Shown here: positions 3,177-30,476 of the stretch, piece after piece
How the letters are laid out: each line of letters begins with the position of its first letter
Numbering within the stretch: the first letter of the stretch is position 1
Origin: a virus
Virus record (IMG/VR): IMGVR_UViG_3300031576_000212
Span: 1 to 33,830 of that record
DNA: 33,830 bases
Direction: 5' to 3' (one strand)
Position numbers and translations under genes: made by a program
Notes under the pieces: generated by a model
What the model saw: the letters and a program-made list of their open reading frames with translations, nothing else
Databases searched by the model: none
What the model was told of the DNA's origin: nothing

Positions 3177-3815
3177 CTAGACCTGGGATCTCCGGGCATC
3201 ACGGCCGGCGCACACCACCAGCCCCGTCGCGTACCTCGAGACCAGGCGCCCGTCGAGAGACGACAGCGCCACGTTCGACGTGATGATCGTCGGCAACTGC
3301 AAGTCACACCGCCGGTCCAGCACGCGGTACAGCACTTCGCCCGCCCACTCCGTGCGCTTCTCGACGCCCAGATCGTCGAAGACGACCAGGTCAGGGTCGT
3401 CGGCAGTATCCGAGATGACCTGCGCCTGCGGAAGTTCCCGGTCGTGGATGCAGAACCGGACGTAGTCCAGGTACGCGGGCACCTTCCAGAAGTTCCCGGC
3501 GCCCGCCGCGTTTAACGCCGCGATCGCGAGATGCGTCTTGCCGGTGCCGTAATCGCCCGTCAGGAACGCGGACCACTCGCGGCCTTTCGCCACGGCCTGG
3601 ACGCGGATGTAAGCCTTCCTGTTGGCATCGGTGGCACGGAACGTCTCGAACGTATCCGTGAGCCGCGGCCTGGGCACGCCCCTGACACGACGCCGGCACG
3701 AGCAACGGGTGTAAAGGGCCATCTCGCCCGGGATCCGCAGCGTGCCGGCGTCGCCGCACCGGAGACACGAAATCCCCTCTTCGGCGATGTCAGCCACTGC
3801 TTGCAGCGCGTTCAC
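3177..3815 (-). CDS. DnaC-like helicase loader (AAA+ ATPase)
   Basis: 212 aa from the GTG at 3815 with GAGGCG upstream. A longer frame to 4061 shadows the DnaD-like gene. An N-terminal zinc motif (CLRCGDAG ... CSCRRR) is followed by the Walker A GDYGTGKTH, the Walker B LVVFDDLG and a sensor-I-like TIITSN. This is the standard layout of phage DnaC/IstB-type loaders that place the host replicative helicase on initiator-bound origin DNA. Its start overlaps the end of the DnaD-like initiator gene by 26 bp, the usual pairing of initiator and loader. Confidence 0.9.
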   Translation of the reverse strand: MNALQAVADIAEEGISCLRCGDAGTLRIPGEMALYTRCSCRRRVRGVPRPRLTDTFETFRATDANRKAYIRVQAVAKGREWSAFLTGDYGTGKTHLAIAALNAAGAGNFWKVPAYLDYVRFCIHDRELPQAQVISDTADDPDLVVFDDLGVEKRTEWAGEVLYRVLDRRCDLQLPTIITSNVALSSLDGRLVSRYATGLVVCAGRDARRSQV

Positions 3816-4551
3816 GGTTCGCCTCGACTTCGGCCTGGACGGCCCGCGCTTCGGCGAATCTGTCTTCGGGATCAGATCCGCCAGGCTTCGAAGGCTTCCC
3901 GCTGAAGCAGCCTTCGGCTCGGTGACGGCGGGCGATGGCGCCGACGTAGCGCCAGTTTCGCTTGTTGAGTTCGCTGGCTTCGTGGAAGCAGTGGCTGATG
4001 CATTCGTCGGACCAGCCATCATCAATTTCCTCCTCGATTTGCTGCGCGACGTGCGCGTCAAGTGAACCGATTGTCGATTCGTACAGGCCGAAAGCCAGCG
4101 CCGCCGGGCCTACGCGCGCACGCGCGTTCTGGCTCTGCTTCTGCTTCTGCTTCTGCTTCTGCTTCTGTTCTGTATCTGTTTCTGTATCTGTATCTGTATC
4201 TGCCGCGCGCGTGGCTCCAGTTTCGGAAACGTTTCGGGAACGGCGGTATCTACGTACACGCGCGGTTACATCGTCACTGACTGGCTGCCATTTCGCCCAG
4301 TTGTGTACAGATACGCCGTCAGGTAGGCGGTCTAACAGACATCTGGCGACCAGCTCATCGACGCCGGTTAGCACCCGGTCTTCATTCATCCGGAGCCGAA
4401 ACGCGATCTCCGCCGTGGGTGGCAATACCCATCGGGGGTATGAACCGCTCGCTAAACAGAGCAAGTTGACCCAGAGTTTGAATAAATGCGGCGACAACCG
4501 CTGCACTTTCGGGTCGTCCAAACTGCACTCCCAGTATCGAAACCACTTCAC
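3790..4551 (-). CDS. Replication initiator, DnaD-like replisome organiser
   Basis: 253 aa if read from the GTG at 4551, whose GTGA overlaps the relic C-terminus of the methylase. Residues 1-100 (KWFRYWECSLDDPKVQRLSPHLFKLW ... VHNWAKWQ in the translation) are a winged-helix DNA-binding domain typical of phage replisome organisers. Residues about 115-145 are a low-complexity linker of repeated DT/ET and QK pairs. The C-terminal part (ALAFGLYESTIGSL ... KRNWRYVGAIARRH) is a DnaD/DnaB_2-type domain. In this family the origin often lies inside the initiator gene. An alternative ATG upstream at 4605 adds 18 residues and cannot be excluded. Confidence 0.85.
   Translation of the reverse strand: MKWFRYWECSLDDPKVQRLSPHLFKLWVNLLCLASGSYPRWVLPPTAEIAFRLRMNEDRVLTGVDELVARCLLDRLPDGVSVHNWAKWQPVSDDVTARVRRYRRSRNVSETGATRAADTDTDTETDTEQKQKQKQKQKQSQNARARVGPAALAFGLYESTIGSLDAHVAQQIEEEIDDGWSDECISHCFHEASELNKRNWRYVGAIARRHRAEGCFSGKPSKPGGSDPEDRFAEARAVQAEVEANRERAASSG
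4135..4202. repeat. Hexanucleotide repeat tract in initiator gene (possible origin iterons)
   Basis: Plus-strand CTGCTT occurs five times in a row (4135-4164). It is followed by a run of TCTGTA/TCTGTT hexamers to about 4202. In the protein this is the alternating QK and DT/ET linker. Hexamers keep the reading frame when copies are gained or lost. Repeats in the linker region of an initiator gene recall the lambda O/ori arrangement, so this is a candidate origin. Confidence 0.7.
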
Positions 4552-11260: not shown

Positions 11261-11967
11261 GGCCCGTGGTGATGGCTTCCAGTGGCACTCGCCTCGTGCG
11301 CCGTCAGCGCATCATCCACAATCGCGGTCACCGCCCGGTGAATCCAGCCCGTCAGCCGCGCAATGGGCTCTGTGTTGCTGTCCGGATCCCCGGCGTAGTC
11401 CTTGCCGTAGCCCAACAGCTTGATTACCAGGTCGAGCTTGGCTTCCTGTTCCGGCGTCATGTCTGCACCTCCTACGATGATTGCGGCGATGTCGTTCCAG
11501 CGGATGCGGTCGTTAGGGCAAGACGTAGTCCCCGGCGCAACCCGTCTGTGTTCCTCGAACCCCTGCCCCAGCACCGGCGCTTTCAGGTGTGGGCAGAGCT
11601 TCCGTAATTCAGAATAGATGTGCGCGTCGGCCTCTACCTGGGCGTTGGTCTCCGGCGCGGTGAAATCGCCGGGTACGCTTTCGTGCTCGACGCCCACGCC
11701 CGTCTTGTTGGCCGGTGGGTTACCAGATGTCCACGTCGCCATCTCCAACTCGTAGTGCTGCCAGATCGTCCCGTCGGTGAGCACACTGGCGAGCCATGAC
11801 GCCGTGGCGCCGGGCCGGTGGCCCTGTTGTAAGTACGCCCGATAGCCCTGAGCGTCATGGCAGATGAGCTTGTCGATGTCCGCGAGGCTGCGGGCGAAGA
11901 ACTTGCCGTGGGGATACGCGGGGTCAAACGTTGCGGGCTTCCAGATGGCAGCCGTGATTCGGGTCAT
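11257..11967 (-). CDS. N-acetylmuramoyl-L-alanine amidase (endolysin)
   Basis: 236 aa from the ATG at 11967. The Amidase_2/PGRP-like domain is in residues about 15-170: LICHDAQGY supplies the first zinc histidine, GTIWQHYELEMATWTSGN the core strand, VGVEHES the next segment and GFEEHRRVAPGTTSCPND the last His and Cys ligands. The C-terminal 60 residues form a helical tail (MTPEQEAKLDLVIKLLG) ending in a short His run, probably a wall- or membrane-associating segment. It cuts the bond between muramic acid and the stem peptide. No clear ribosome site precedes the start; the hammerhead ribozyme lies on the opposite strand just upstream. Confidence 0.9.
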   Translation of the reverse strand: MTRITAAIWKPATFDPAYPHGKFFARSLADIDKLICHDAQGYRAYLQQGHRPGATASWLASVLTDGTIWQHYELEMATWTSGNPPANKTGVGVEHESVPGDFTAPETNAQVEADAHIYSELRKLCPHLKAPVLGQGFEEHRRVAPGTTSCPNDRIRWNDIAAIIVGGADMTPEQEAKLDLVIKLLGYGKDYAGDPDSNTEPIARLTGWIHRAVTAIVDDALTAHEASATGSHHHGP

Positions 11968-11975
11968 GCTACAAT
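11967..11975 (+). promoter_or_regulatory. Extended -10 promoter candidate before the ribozyme
   Basis: TGCTACAAT (TG-n-TACAAT) on the plus strand; no good -35 box. Initiation near 11982 would put the hammerhead ribozyme about 40 nt into the RNA. CATGCTACAAT is repeated with one mismatch at 12241, before the tRNA. On the minus strand the same bases straddle the endolysin start codon, so a function on that strand is also possible. Confidence 0.4.
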
Positions 11976-12022
11976 CCGTAGTCCGTGGGTTCCCCAGGGC
12001 GGCTGACAACGGGAACATCTGG

Positions 12023-12097
12023 CCCGGCAAAACGGCTGATGAGCGGTTGAGACCACCGCGAAACGCTAAAGCGTCCCGTGGAGTCCTCCCTGCCGGG
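12023..12097 (+). ncRNA. Type I hammerhead self-cleaving ribozyme
   Basis: All core elements are present in order. Stem I: CCCGGCA (12023-12029) with TGCCGGG (12091-12097), and ACGG (12032-12035) with CCGT (12076-12079). Core CTGATGA (12036-12042). Stem II: GCGG (12043-12046) with CCGC (12056-12059), 9-nt loop. GAAA (12060-12063). Stem III: ACGC (12063-12066) with GCGT (12071-12074), loop TAAA. Cleavage nucleotide C12075 follows GT, giving the preferred GUC triplet; cleavage is predicted between 12075 and 12076. Stem I has an asymmetric internal loop (AA opposite 11 nt), where natural hammerheads make the tertiary contact with loop II. The open stem is stem I, hence type I. It is antisense to the lysis operon, 56 nt upstream of the endolysin start. 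Confidence 0.92.
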
Positions 12098-12111
12098 GAA
12101 TAACTGAGGAC

Positions 12112-12243
12112 CTAGGCCGCCCAACTTCGCACCTCCTTCACGTACCTGTCCGCTGCGTCTCCCGTCGGCGTCCACCCCTCCAGCGCGTCCAGCCAGGCGT
12201 CCCAGATGGCGACGGCGACGAGGATGCCGAAGAAGAAGACCAT
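12112..12243 (-). CDS. Small membrane protein, 43 aa
   Basis: ATG at 12243, stop at 12112-12114. A short N-terminal hydrophobic helix (VFFFGILVAVAIW) is followed by an amphipathic, charged C-terminus. There is no clear ribosome site; the start shares the sequence ATTNTAGCATG with the endolysin start. It could be a small lysis protein or a by-product. It lies antisense to the stretch between the ribozyme and the tRNA. Confidence 0.5.
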   Translation of the reverse strand: MVFFFGILVAVAIWDAWLDALEGWTPTGDAADRYVKEVRSWAA

Positions 12244-12251
12244 GCTAAAAT
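12243..12251 (+). promoter_or_regulatory. Extended -10 promoter candidate before the tRNA
   Basis: TGCTAAAAT (TG-n-TAAAAT) on the plus strand, with no clear -35 box. Transcription would start near 12258, giving a 5' leader of about 13 nt before the tRNA and including the outer clamp. It is nearly identical to the element before the ribozyme. Confidence 0.4.
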
Positions 12252-12270
12252 GCGCTCCGGGCGACGGGCT

Positions 12271-12351
12271 TATCCGATAGCTCAATGGCAGAGCAGCTGG
12301 TTCGGGATTCCCCGAGCCAGCAGGTTCTCGGTTCGAGTCCGGGTCGGATAA
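12271..12351 (+). tRNA. tRNA-Pro(CGG)-like with 9-nt insertion in the anticodon loop
   Basis: Acceptor stem TATCCGA (12271-12277) pairs with TCGGATA (12344-12350), discriminator A. T8 and A9 follow. D arm GCTC/GAGC (12280-12283/12291-12294) with GG in the loop. T arm CTCGG/CCGGG with loop TTCGAGT (12332-12338). Variable loop AGGTT. The anticodon stem GCTGG/CCAGC (12296-12300/12317-12321) encloses 16 nt instead of 7. These begin TTCGGGA, the usual tRNA-Pro(CGG) loop, then TTCCCCGAG. The extra 9 nt pair with the loop, making one 11-bp hairpin with an ATTC tetraloop and hiding the anticodon. Outside the tRNA, GGCGAC (12260-12265) pairs with GTCGCC (12355-12360). CCA is not encoded. It fills the gap between two minus-strand genes exactly. 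Confidence 0.8.
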
Positions 12352-12360
12352 ATCGTCGCC

Positions 12361-28381: not shown

Positions 28382-29733
28382 TAGGTCGTCGCGTCCTTCA
28401 TCACGCTCCAGCTCTCCGCGTGCCGGACCTGGAAGTCGGCGAACATGAGCGCCACCAAGCGCACCACGCCGGCATTGCCGCCGGTGTACGGGTCGACCAG
28501 GATTTCCAGGTCGCTCCAAACGGCAACGATGCCTTCTTCCCAGTTCCCGAAGAAGATCGCCGAGCACGTGCTGACGGTCCCCTTCGTCAGGTCGCTGCGC
28601 ACTTGGTTCGTCACGAACGCCCGGTAACCGTTGAGCGGGGTCCCCGGGGTCGCTGGCGCCAGGTTCGCGGGATCCTGCCAGATGAAGAGCCCGGACGAGC
28701 TGACCCGCTCCGTGTTCTTCAGCTTGCCTCGGACCTTCGAGTTCGTGATGTAGGCCAGCCCGCCCATATCGGCGTTGGCGACGGCCACGTCCGTTTCCAA
28801 CTCCACGATGTGAGCCCACGTTGGCGCTGCGCCGTTCGTGCCGCCTGCGACGTCTCCAATACCGGATGTGTTGAACACGCCGGCTGGCTCCGCGCCTGAG
28901 CCCGACCCGTGGAGCACGGTCCGGTCAACCTCGACCGCCAGGTTACTTGCGAGGTCCTCGCGGATGAAGCGCTCCACGTCCATCGAGCCCTGAAGCAGCG
29001 TCTGGCGCGTGATGTCCGTGTAGCAGGCGAGTTGGCTTGGCGAGAATTTGACCTGTCCGAATGTCGCAACGCCCTCTGTCGGCGCGACGCCCTCAGACAC
29101 CCAGGCAGTGTTCGTTGTCGCCGCCGTGTGCTTTGGAAGAAGCAGGTCGCCGCGCAGGCCCGTAATGAACCGCACACCAGCCGCCCTGGTGACCATGCGG
29201 TTACGGAGTAGCTCGATAACTCCACCGTGCTCTACCTGGACGATGTCGGCGCCCTCCGTGCCGACGGTCAGGTCGCGCTGTTCCCCCATCATCACTTCAA
29301 ACGGGATGTGCGCGCTGCCCGGAGTGTTGGCCTTACCGGATCGCTTAGCGACCGCCTCGCTGACCTCCAGCTCCAACCGGGCATCCTTCTCGGAAATGAT
29401 GCCGGCTTTTGCCGCGATCAGACGGCGGATGCTGAACTTATTGATGTCGTCACGCGACATACCGATGTAGTTCGGCGCGTCCGACGGATGGGGCTTGATC
29501 GCCCGGTCCGGGGTTCCTGAGTTGGCCTCTTCGGCCATCCGCATCTCTTCCTCGTTGCGGATCTGATTCAACCGCTTCTGTACGTCAGCCATCACGCCGT
29601 CGTACTTCAACTGCTCGTCCGGTGTGAAGTCCCGGTCTTCTGCGTTCACGTCGGAGAGCATCGCTCCCGCTTCGTCCAGCAGCTTCTTCCGCTCCCGCTT
29701 CAAGGCGTCAACGTCGACGCTCTGTCGTGTCAT
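28381..29733 (-). CDS. Major capsid protein, HK97 fold
   Basis: 450 aa from the ATG at 29733, overlapping the protease stop (ATGA). Residues 1-110 are a helical N-terminal delta domain (LKRERKKLLDEAGAML ... EQLKYDGVMADVQKRLNQI), which acts as an internal scaffold and is removed by the protease. The rest is the HK97-type shell domain (AAGVRFITGLRGDLLLPKHT, GQVKFSPSQLACYTDITRQTLLQGSMDVERFI in the translation). About 400 copies form the head in this size class; that number is a family estimate. Confidence 0.93.
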   Translation of the reverse strand: MTRQSVDVDALKRERKKLLDEAGAMLSDVNAEDRDFTPDEQLKYDGVMADVQKRLNQIRNEEEMRMAEEANSGTPDRAIKPHPSDAPNYIGMSRDDINKFSIRRLIAAKAGIISEKDARLELEVSEAVAKRSGKANTPGSAHIPFEVMMGEQRDLTVGTEGADIVQVEHGGVIELLRNRMVTRAAGVRFITGLRGDLLLPKHTAATTNTAWVSEGVAPTEGVATFGQVKFSPSQLACYTDITRQTLLQGSMDVERFIREDLASNLAVEVDRTVLHGSGSGAEPAGVFNTSGIGDVAGGTNGAAPTWAHIVELETDVAVANADMGGLAYITNSKVRGKLKNTERVSSSGLFIWQDPANLAPATPGTPLNGYRAFVTNQVRSDLTKGTVSTCSAIFFGNWEEGIVAVWSDLEILVDPYTGGNAGVVRLVALMFADFQVRHAESWSVMKDATT

Positions 29734-30473
29734 TTCTCTTCTCCTTCTCCGTATTGCTTGCCGGCCTCCATCGCGAGACGCCATTGTTTGACGTTCATAC
29801 TTCGCGATTTGACCGAAACCTCTTCTTCCACCGAGTGGTCTTGCGCCGGCTCGGTGGGTTGCTCTTCTTCCGCCGAGTGGTCTTGCGCCGGCTCGGTGGG
29901 TTGCTCTTCTTCCGCCGAGTGGTCTTGCGCCGGCTCGGTGGTTATAGCCAGTGAAAGCGCCCGCGCGGACACGATCGTGTCCTTGTAGGCGGGAAAGACG
30001 ACGGGTCCAACGTCGAACAGCCGGACTTCTTTCAGCGTCCGCAGTCGCTGCCCGCCCTCTTCCGGCAGACTCCAATCGTCCTGAATGACCTGGAAGCTGA
30101 AGGACTGACTGACGACGTCGCCGCGCCTGATAAGCTCCAGGACATCGCGTCCGGGCTCCGTATTGGGCATCTTGACGCGCATATGAAGCCCCTTTTTGTC
30201 CTCTTCCAGCTGCAAAGTGCCGTTTCTGGTGGATCCTAGCACCTGATCCGGATTGTGGTTGAAGAGCGCGACGATAGCGGGGTTCTCGGCGATTGTCTTC
30301 GCGAAGGCGCCCGGCGCGATCTGTTCCACGAACCCGCCCAGATTCTCGGATTTTCGGTTAAAAACGGCAGCATAGCCGTCGATGACGCCCTCCGAATCGT
30401 CCGTCAGGCGCAATTCCAGCGGCATTGTCCGGCGTTCCGGCGGCTCTGTGAGTCGCTCTGCATCGTTTGTCAT
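29730..30473 (-). CDS. HK97-type prohead protease
   Basis: 247 aa from the ATG at 30473; a TTG one codon upstream is also in frame. The protease domain (residues 15-165) shows IDGYAAVFNRKSENLGGFVEQIAPGAF, then ALFNHNPDQVLG with the catalytic His, and RRGDVVSQSFSFQV with the catalytic Ser. It cuts capsid delta domains during maturation. The C-terminal part has a tandem 14-residue repeat (TEPAQDHSAEEEQP) before a basic helix (VKQWRLAMEAGKQYG). Family members often carry scaffold-like C-termini; the repeats are unusual. Confidence 0.9.
   Translation of the reverse strand: MTNDAERLTEPPERRTMPLELRLTDDSEGVIDGYAAVFNRKSENLGGFVEQIAPGAFAKTIAENPAIVALFNHNPDQVLGSTRNGTLQLEEDKKGLHMRVKMPNTEPGRDVLELIRRGDVVSQSFSFQVIQDDWSLPEEGGQRLRTLKEVRLFDVGPVVFPAYKDTIVSARALSLAITTEPAQDHSAEEEQPTEPAQDHSAEEEQPTEPAQDHSVEEEVSVKSRSMNVKQWRLAMEAGKQYGEGEEK
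29821..29941. repeat. 42-bp tandem repeat in the protease gene
   Basis: Two full copies (29821-29862, 29863-29904) and a partial third (to 29941), almost identical at the DNA level. Their translation is three acidic 14-residue units. Perfect DNA repeats suggest recent expansion. Confidence 0.9.
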
Positions 30474-30476
30474 CAA

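Follow-up and report, generated by a model that had tools for sequence, protein, structure and literature searches.

Type I hammerhead ribozymes (Rfam RF00163; PMC3088659) have a CUGANGA/GAAA/UH core and three helices with stem I open, and they are known from phages and prophages (Perreault et al. 2011, PMC3088659). GOLLD and ROOL are structured RNAs of phages and prophages, often near tRNA islands, that form RNA-only oligomers (PMC12286853). Theta ribozymes are self-cleaving and lie beside phage tRNAs (PMC10879173), and the type III antitoxin RNAs and phage pseudo-ToxI are short pseudoknotted units from a tandem precursor; phages carry mimics of such antitoxins that block a toxin (PMC3475682). 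The predicted RNA described here resembles each of these in part. It lies in a viral sequence of 33,830 nt (IMG/VR record IMGVR_UViG_3300031576_000212), the whole stretch of DNA that was analysed and that we call the window. A complete type I hammerhead is found at 12023-12097 on the plus strand, with all core elements seen both by reading the sequence and with a descriptor:

12023-12029 and 12091-12097, plus strand: outer helix CCCGGCA/UGCCGGG, which is helix P2 of a larger RNA
12032-12079, plus strand: type I hammerhead core (stems I, II and III and the catalytic nucleotides), matched by the descriptor
12032-12035 and 12076-12079, plus strand: hammerhead stem I, ACGG/CCGU
12036-12042, plus strand: hammerhead core CUGAUGA
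12043-12047 and 12055-12059, plus strand: hammerhead stem II, 5 bp, GCGGU/ACCGC
12060-12062, plus strand: hammerhead GAA
12063-12066 and 12071-12074, plus strand: hammerhead stem III
12075, plus strand: C17, with predicted cleavage at 12075/12076 (C17 / N2)

The descriptor asked for CUGANGA, stem II, GAA, stem III ending in U16.1, H17 and stem I, each stem with at least 4 bp. In its strict type I form it matched the window once and none of 600 shuffled windows (~41 Mb; first-order Markov shuffles of the window, both strands). CUGANGA, GAA, A15.1-U16.1 and H17 are all present, stems I, II and III are paired with stem I open, and the 10.1-11.1 pair closing stem II is a Watson-Crick G-C. An earlier, sequence-only reading had placed the universally required hammerhead elements in order at these positions, on the strand opposite to the surrounding genes and with a 7-bp outer extension of stem I, and we find the same; the stem II that it gave as GCGG/CCGC is present and is one pair longer than claimed. 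The Rfam hammerhead models, which it had proposed as a check, gave a less favourable answer: the best score in the window (Hammerhead_HH9) is 16.5 bits against a cut-off of 52, the gathering score being a cut-off for searches rather than a criterion of chemistry. When the 75 nt are folded in isolation, nearest-neighbour energies are -24.0 kcal/mol for the hammerhead and -33.6 kcal/mol for the best fold. Since the hammerhead is not the minimum-energy fold of its 75 nt, support for it rests on comparison. A pattern search with the exact hammerhead stems gave no match.

The hammerhead had been taken for the whole element; instead, it is part of a larger conserved RNA of ~140 nt that begins near 11983 and runs to ~12125 on the plus strand. 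When the surroundings were compared with phage records by blastn, Arthrobacter phages Constance and Karkharias matched over ~11983-12117, and Mycobacterium phages Gaia and phiGD24-3 and Microcystis phage Mwe-JY26 over shorter stretches; in Mwe-JY26 the flanks are kept and the hammerhead is absent. Pattern scans of IMG/VR yielded 53, 17 and at least 120 contigs, and 4 bacterial or archaeal MAG contigs also matched. Among the matches listed from blastn and pattern scans there are at least 88 distinct unpermuted relatives, 64 with a hammerhead and 24 without a recognisable one, and at least 24 circularly permuted relatives, all with a hammerhead. As the pattern scans selected on unit-B letters, the invariance of unit B is partly by construction. 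The carriers are phages and prophages of Arthrobacter, Mycobacterium, Microcystis, E. coli, Enterobacter and Pectobacterium, as well as Clostridia-labelled contigs. No family in Rfam 15 covers the larger RNA in the window or the scanned relatives at gathering and E-value thresholds, a plasmid search for it gave no match, and no description of it was found in the open-licence literature. By these comparisons, the predicted ~140-nt RNA is previously unclassified and new as a whole, belonging to no family among those tested, with a hammerhead domain of a known kind as one removable arm. Its parts in the window are as follows:

11983-11988, plus strand: 5' motif of unit A, N1CGUGG (here CCGUGG), and likely 5' end of the RNA; invariant except N1 in 110 of 111 members
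11989-11994, plus strand: 5' strand of P1, the hairpin stem of unit A, pairing with 12011-12016
11997-12003, plus strand: loop of unit A and 5' strand of PKb (GGGCGGC), pairing with the unit B tail at 12116-12122
12011-12016, plus strand: 3' strand of P1, by covariation
12017-12022, plus strand: junction A, AUCUGG; AUCUNG in 106 of 111 members and AGCUAG in 3
12023-12029, plus strand: tail of unit A and 5' strand of P2 (CCCGGCA), the outer stem I of the earlier reading, by covariation
12076-12082, plus strand: 5' motif of unit B, N2CGUGGA, a repeat of 11983-11988 with N1=N2 across members
12083-12088, plus strand: 5' strand of stem B (PKa), GUCCUC, pairing with 12106-12111
12091-12097, plus strand: 3' strand of P2, inside the loop of unit B, by covariation
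12106-12111, plus strand: 3' strand of stem B (PKa), GAGGAC, by covariation
12112-12115, plus strand: junction B, CUAG, the commonest junction; being in the search pattern, it is conserved partly by construction
12116-12122, plus strand: tail of unit B and 3' strand of PKb, by covariation and loop-tail pairing

The 3' end probably falls within about 5 nt of the unit B tail (12122). To assess the fold, we aligned 41 distinct unpermuted cores with the hammerhead cut out, which gave a nearly gap-free alignment. Four helices were counted (P1, P2, PKa and PKb), two of them pseudoknots, and they covary strongly: 97.1% of cells are paired over the four helices, and 204 cells are doubly changed against 51.3 in shuffles, a control that ignores relatedness. 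Pairing drops to 36-49% when the helices are slid, a control that keeps relatedness. P1 is paired in 99.6% of cells with double changes at 5 of its 6 pairs, P2 and PKa are each paired in 100% with double changes at 3 pairs, and PKb shows double changes at 6 of 7 pairs. P2 is also found in relatives without a hammerhead. What the sequence-only reading described as an asymmetric stem-I loop facing loop II turns out to be a covarying pseudoknot strand, the 5' strand of PKa falling within it, together with the repeated CCGUGGA motif of the larger RNA.

The RNA is built of two homologous tandem units, each comprising NCGUGG, a 6-bp hairpin, a CUNG junction and a 3' tail, which presumably arose by duplication. 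Unit A has the layout N1CGUGG-G(U/C)xxxx hairpin-AUCUNG-tail and unit B the layout N2CGYGGA-GUxxxC hairpin-CUAG-tail. The loop of unit A can form at least 7 bp with the tail of unit B in 101 of 111 members, compared with 6% for mismatched members, and the tail of unit A forms at least 6 bp with the loop of unit B in 108 of 111. Such reciprocal loop-tail pairing (PKb and P2) would produce a pseudo-two-fold, interlocked fold. Single-unit versions, i.e. potential homodimers, were also sought; the pattern returned only loci already in the set, and self loop-tail pairing was mostly 5 bp or less. The first nucleotides of the two units go together as well: N1=N2 holds in 110 of 112 members, namely 86 of the 88 that are unpermuted (23 of 24 among those that have no recognisable hammerhead) and all 24 that are permuted. 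On a tree built without the N1 and N2 positions both change alike on 20 branches, and no other column has mutual information with N1 above 0.26 bits. This concerted change suggests contact of both units with one common partner, or with one another. As a possible cause we considered pairing of N1 at the base of the outer stem; it occurs in some permuted members only and so does not account for N1=N2.

In the permuted members (n=24) the order is hammerhead, unit B, small hairpin, unit A. The ribozyme is at the same point of the fold and the four helices are again supported (94.3% of cells paired and 61 doubly changed against 19, n=16), and the predicted cut also lies directly before N2 in 24 of 24. 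In E. coli prophages the permuted locus sits between the antiterminator Q and holin genes (15 of 5,426 genomes), in Enterobacter phage SDFMU_EhYP between structural genes, and in Pectobacterium phage Pappous just upstream of tRNA-Met. Both circular permutations of one fold thus exist, as would be expected if the RNA were circular, formed by cleavage and ligation or by RtcB joining, with the two gene orders as linear forms of one circle. Hammerheads are able to ligate. However, there is a single hammerhead per locus, so that a second defined end is missing, and there are no tandem copies; we consider a circle quite improbable. Comparison among members establishes, at the level of sequence, the fold, the two-unit design, the permutation and the conserved ribozyme site. 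Upstream of the permuted RNA in locus L118 (3819-3873, minus strand), and also in L125, there is a weak match to tmRNA_permuted (26.3 bits against a cut-off of 47) that spans a tag-like reading frame, ANDDVVLMAA-stop. The inverted repeat that flanks the hammerhead RNA recurs at a separate short hairpin upstream in the same two loci.

To follow the ribozyme across the family, we parsed 38 hammerhead-bearing members in detail, without requiring a Watson-Crick pair at 10.1/11.1. All 38 parse as hammerheads with an invariant U16.1, H17 is C in 27, A in 9 and U in 2 and never G, and the predicted cleavage site is immediately 5' of N2 in every one. Pairs in stems II and III vary with compensation among relatives. 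The earlier reading had counted loss of the core with retained flanks against a ribozyme: some relatives do lack any hammerhead, but where one is present the CUGANGA consensus is intact in 37 of 38. The core of Gaia is degenerate (UUGAUAA). At 10.1/11.1, 26 of the 38 have a non-Watson-Crick combination (A.A in 18, U.U in 5, C.A in 2 and A.G in 1), which may slow cleavage. Perreault et al. (2011) rejected hammerhead hits with 10.1/11.1 mispairs (PMC3088659), and this may be the reason that the family was missed. None of 20 loci scanned reaches an Rfam hammerhead gathering score (best values among relatives 30.9 against 48.5 bits and 28.7 against 34 bits). In PaP3 and Bcep176 (L152 and L153), hammerhead phages of the same study, our own descriptor found no canonical hammerhead and no sequence like unit B. 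Seven A/T-rich loci (L007, L015, L019, L037, L060, L106 and L127) have an insert of ~25-50 nt within hammerhead stem III.

From the comparisons above, we think it probable that an independent phage RNA of ~140 nt and two units carries the hammerhead as an arm, and that the ribozyme frees the units to work in a nicked, pseudo-symmetric form. It would lie between the units, in the linker that leads from A to B, and its cut would generate the exact 5' end of unit B, which corresponds to the 5' end of the RNA itself. After folding and cutting, the two units would be held together by about 13-14 bp (P2 and PKb). In permuted members the hammerhead would occupy the same place in the fold, with the molecule opened on the other link, and the two NCGUGG motifs would contact one shared partner. 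Beyond the fold itself, we infer that the cut happens in vivo, that it parts the two units, still held by P2 and PKb, and that it has functional importance. Not every member needs the cut, since 24 have no recognisable hammerhead. In the main rival explanation the RNA acts as a single chain, and the hammerhead would be an optional arm of the linker, selfish or structural perhaps, whose cleavage is tolerated but not exploited. Members without a recognisable hammerhead are otherwise fully conserved, the state with or without hammerhead switches many times on the tree, and the degenerate core of Gaia points the same way. Yet the intact cores, the absence of G at H17 and a cut that is always on the N2 boundary, permuted members included, speak against such an arm, and we judge a one-chain RNA unlikely, if still a serious contender.

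The proposed nicked two-unit RNA must also be set against its genomic neighbours. PHROG scans of ten neighbouring window proteins gave endolysin-like matches only, and these weak matches (E 1e-6 to 9e-5) bear out the earlier placement of the hammerhead beside an endolysin gene; a search of viral contigs for homologues of this endolysin found none. The gene probably starts with the ATG at 11967, in which case the RNA leads away from the gene and need not overlap the coding sequence. In the C-terminal part (29730-29900, minus strand) of a distant window ORF, 29730-30476, we noted about three tandem copies of a AEEEQPTEPAQDHS-like repeat. Around the RNA, we noted the following promoter-like and tRNA-like elements:

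11967-11975, plus strand: extended -10, promoter-like TGCTACAAT, from a pattern search, just upstream of 11983
12243-12251, plus strand: second extended -10, TGCTAAAAT, upstream of a tRNA-like gene, with the same caveat of a pattern search
12270-12352, plus strand: tRNA-like gene without anticodon, an 11-bp arm and tetraloop replacing the anticodon arm (ARAGORN tRNA-???; Rfam tRNA 54.3 bits)

The extended -10 pattern has 3 matches in the window where 0.8 are expected, a count that is not significant alone, since 6 of 100 shuffles also attain it; no promoter came out of a full sigma-70 scan there. Where no tRNA adjoins the RNA, the hexamer TANNNT is enriched 6 nt ahead of unit A, in 9 of 63 members against ~1 at other offsets. 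The sequence-only reading had left the choice between an antisense and an independent RNA; the extended -10 just 5' of 11983 and the varied neighbours of relatives fit an independent one better. An element that acts on the adjacent lysis transcript, as an antisense RNA or by processing it, would suit the adjoining endolysin in the window and the site between Q and holin in E. coli prophages. But the likely endolysin start lies outside the RNA in the window, and where the RNA is found in tRNA clusters, in structural operons or in the E. coli late leader, it shares the strand of the adjacent genes. We regard such a role as very improbable.

A tRNA gene lies on the same strand within 300 nt in 34 of 112 members and on the opposite strand in none. 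The RNA of Constance, Gaia, phiGD24-3 and Mwe-JY26 is within or beside tRNA genes or tRNA-like sequence, and in some relatives tRNA genes end 0-1 nt before the unit A motif; N1 directly abuts the upstream tRNA in L003 and L032, and a downstream tRNA gene begins within a few nt of the unit B tail in L032, L042 and L045. Such proximity would be expected of a theta-like, tRNA-processing ribozyme that trims nearby phage tRNAs. However, the predicted cut is inside the conserved RNA and away from tRNA ends, many members have no nearby tRNA, and theta ribozymes have an HDV-like fold and are located in 3' trailers (PMC10879173), so we give tRNA trimming scarcely any credence. For the nicked two-unit RNA, the neighbourhood suggests that unit A probably gets its 5' end from transcription initiation or tRNA processing, and that the hammerhead would create that of unit B. 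Other features were seen around the RNA in individual relatives. L028 has a clear tmRNA gene (3523-3882, 116 bits) ~540 nt upstream of a hammerhead-free copy, among many tRNAs. In Constance (L001), degenerate tRNA-like sequences at 2434-2500 and 2648-2705, neither called by ARAGORN, flank the RNA, and L017, L022, L038 and L041 (and L033) have TTCGCCCAACAGGGCAACG-like repeats on both sides of it.

A bolder form of this proposal, doubtful but worth stating, is a widespread class of phage RNAs acting as self-processed, pseudo-symmetric heterodimers, with the 5' end of the second protomer made by the ribozyme, that bind or decoy a host partner. If so, N1=N2 would mark the shared contact, and a dimeric tRNA-cutting defence enzyme, a translation factor or the ribosome would be examples of possible partners. 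More generally, a phage hammerhead is here given a precise, conserved place, the boundary of two homologous halves, and with it a testable role, in small, tractable loci that occur in phages of laboratory hosts (Arthrobacter and Mycobacterium smegmatis, for example) as well as in prophages of E. coli.

How does this RNA compare with the known systems? While RF00163 hammerheads share its core, the present one is embedded in a larger, pseudoknotted RNA of which its outer stem I is a helix. Theta ribozymes have an HDV-like fold and cut tRNA 3' trailers, whereas ours is a hammerhead with its predicted cut inside another RNA. ToxI repeats are 36 nt long and tied to a toxin gene, whereas here two units of ~45 nt would be reciprocally paired with a ribozyme between them; by analogy, the likeness to type III antitoxins may serve as a lead for function, nothing more. 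The predicted combination of reciprocal loop-tail exchange, two circular permutations and an optional ribozyme has no match among the families tested. GOLLD and ROOL, whose covariance models match neither the window (at gathering), nor the element (E up to 10), nor the scanned relatives, are several times larger, and they differ in that the present RNA has its symmetry inside one transcript, with a hammerhead separating the halves. This pseudo-symmetry suggests an intramolecular counterpart of the RNA-only homo-oligomers of GOLLD and ROOL.
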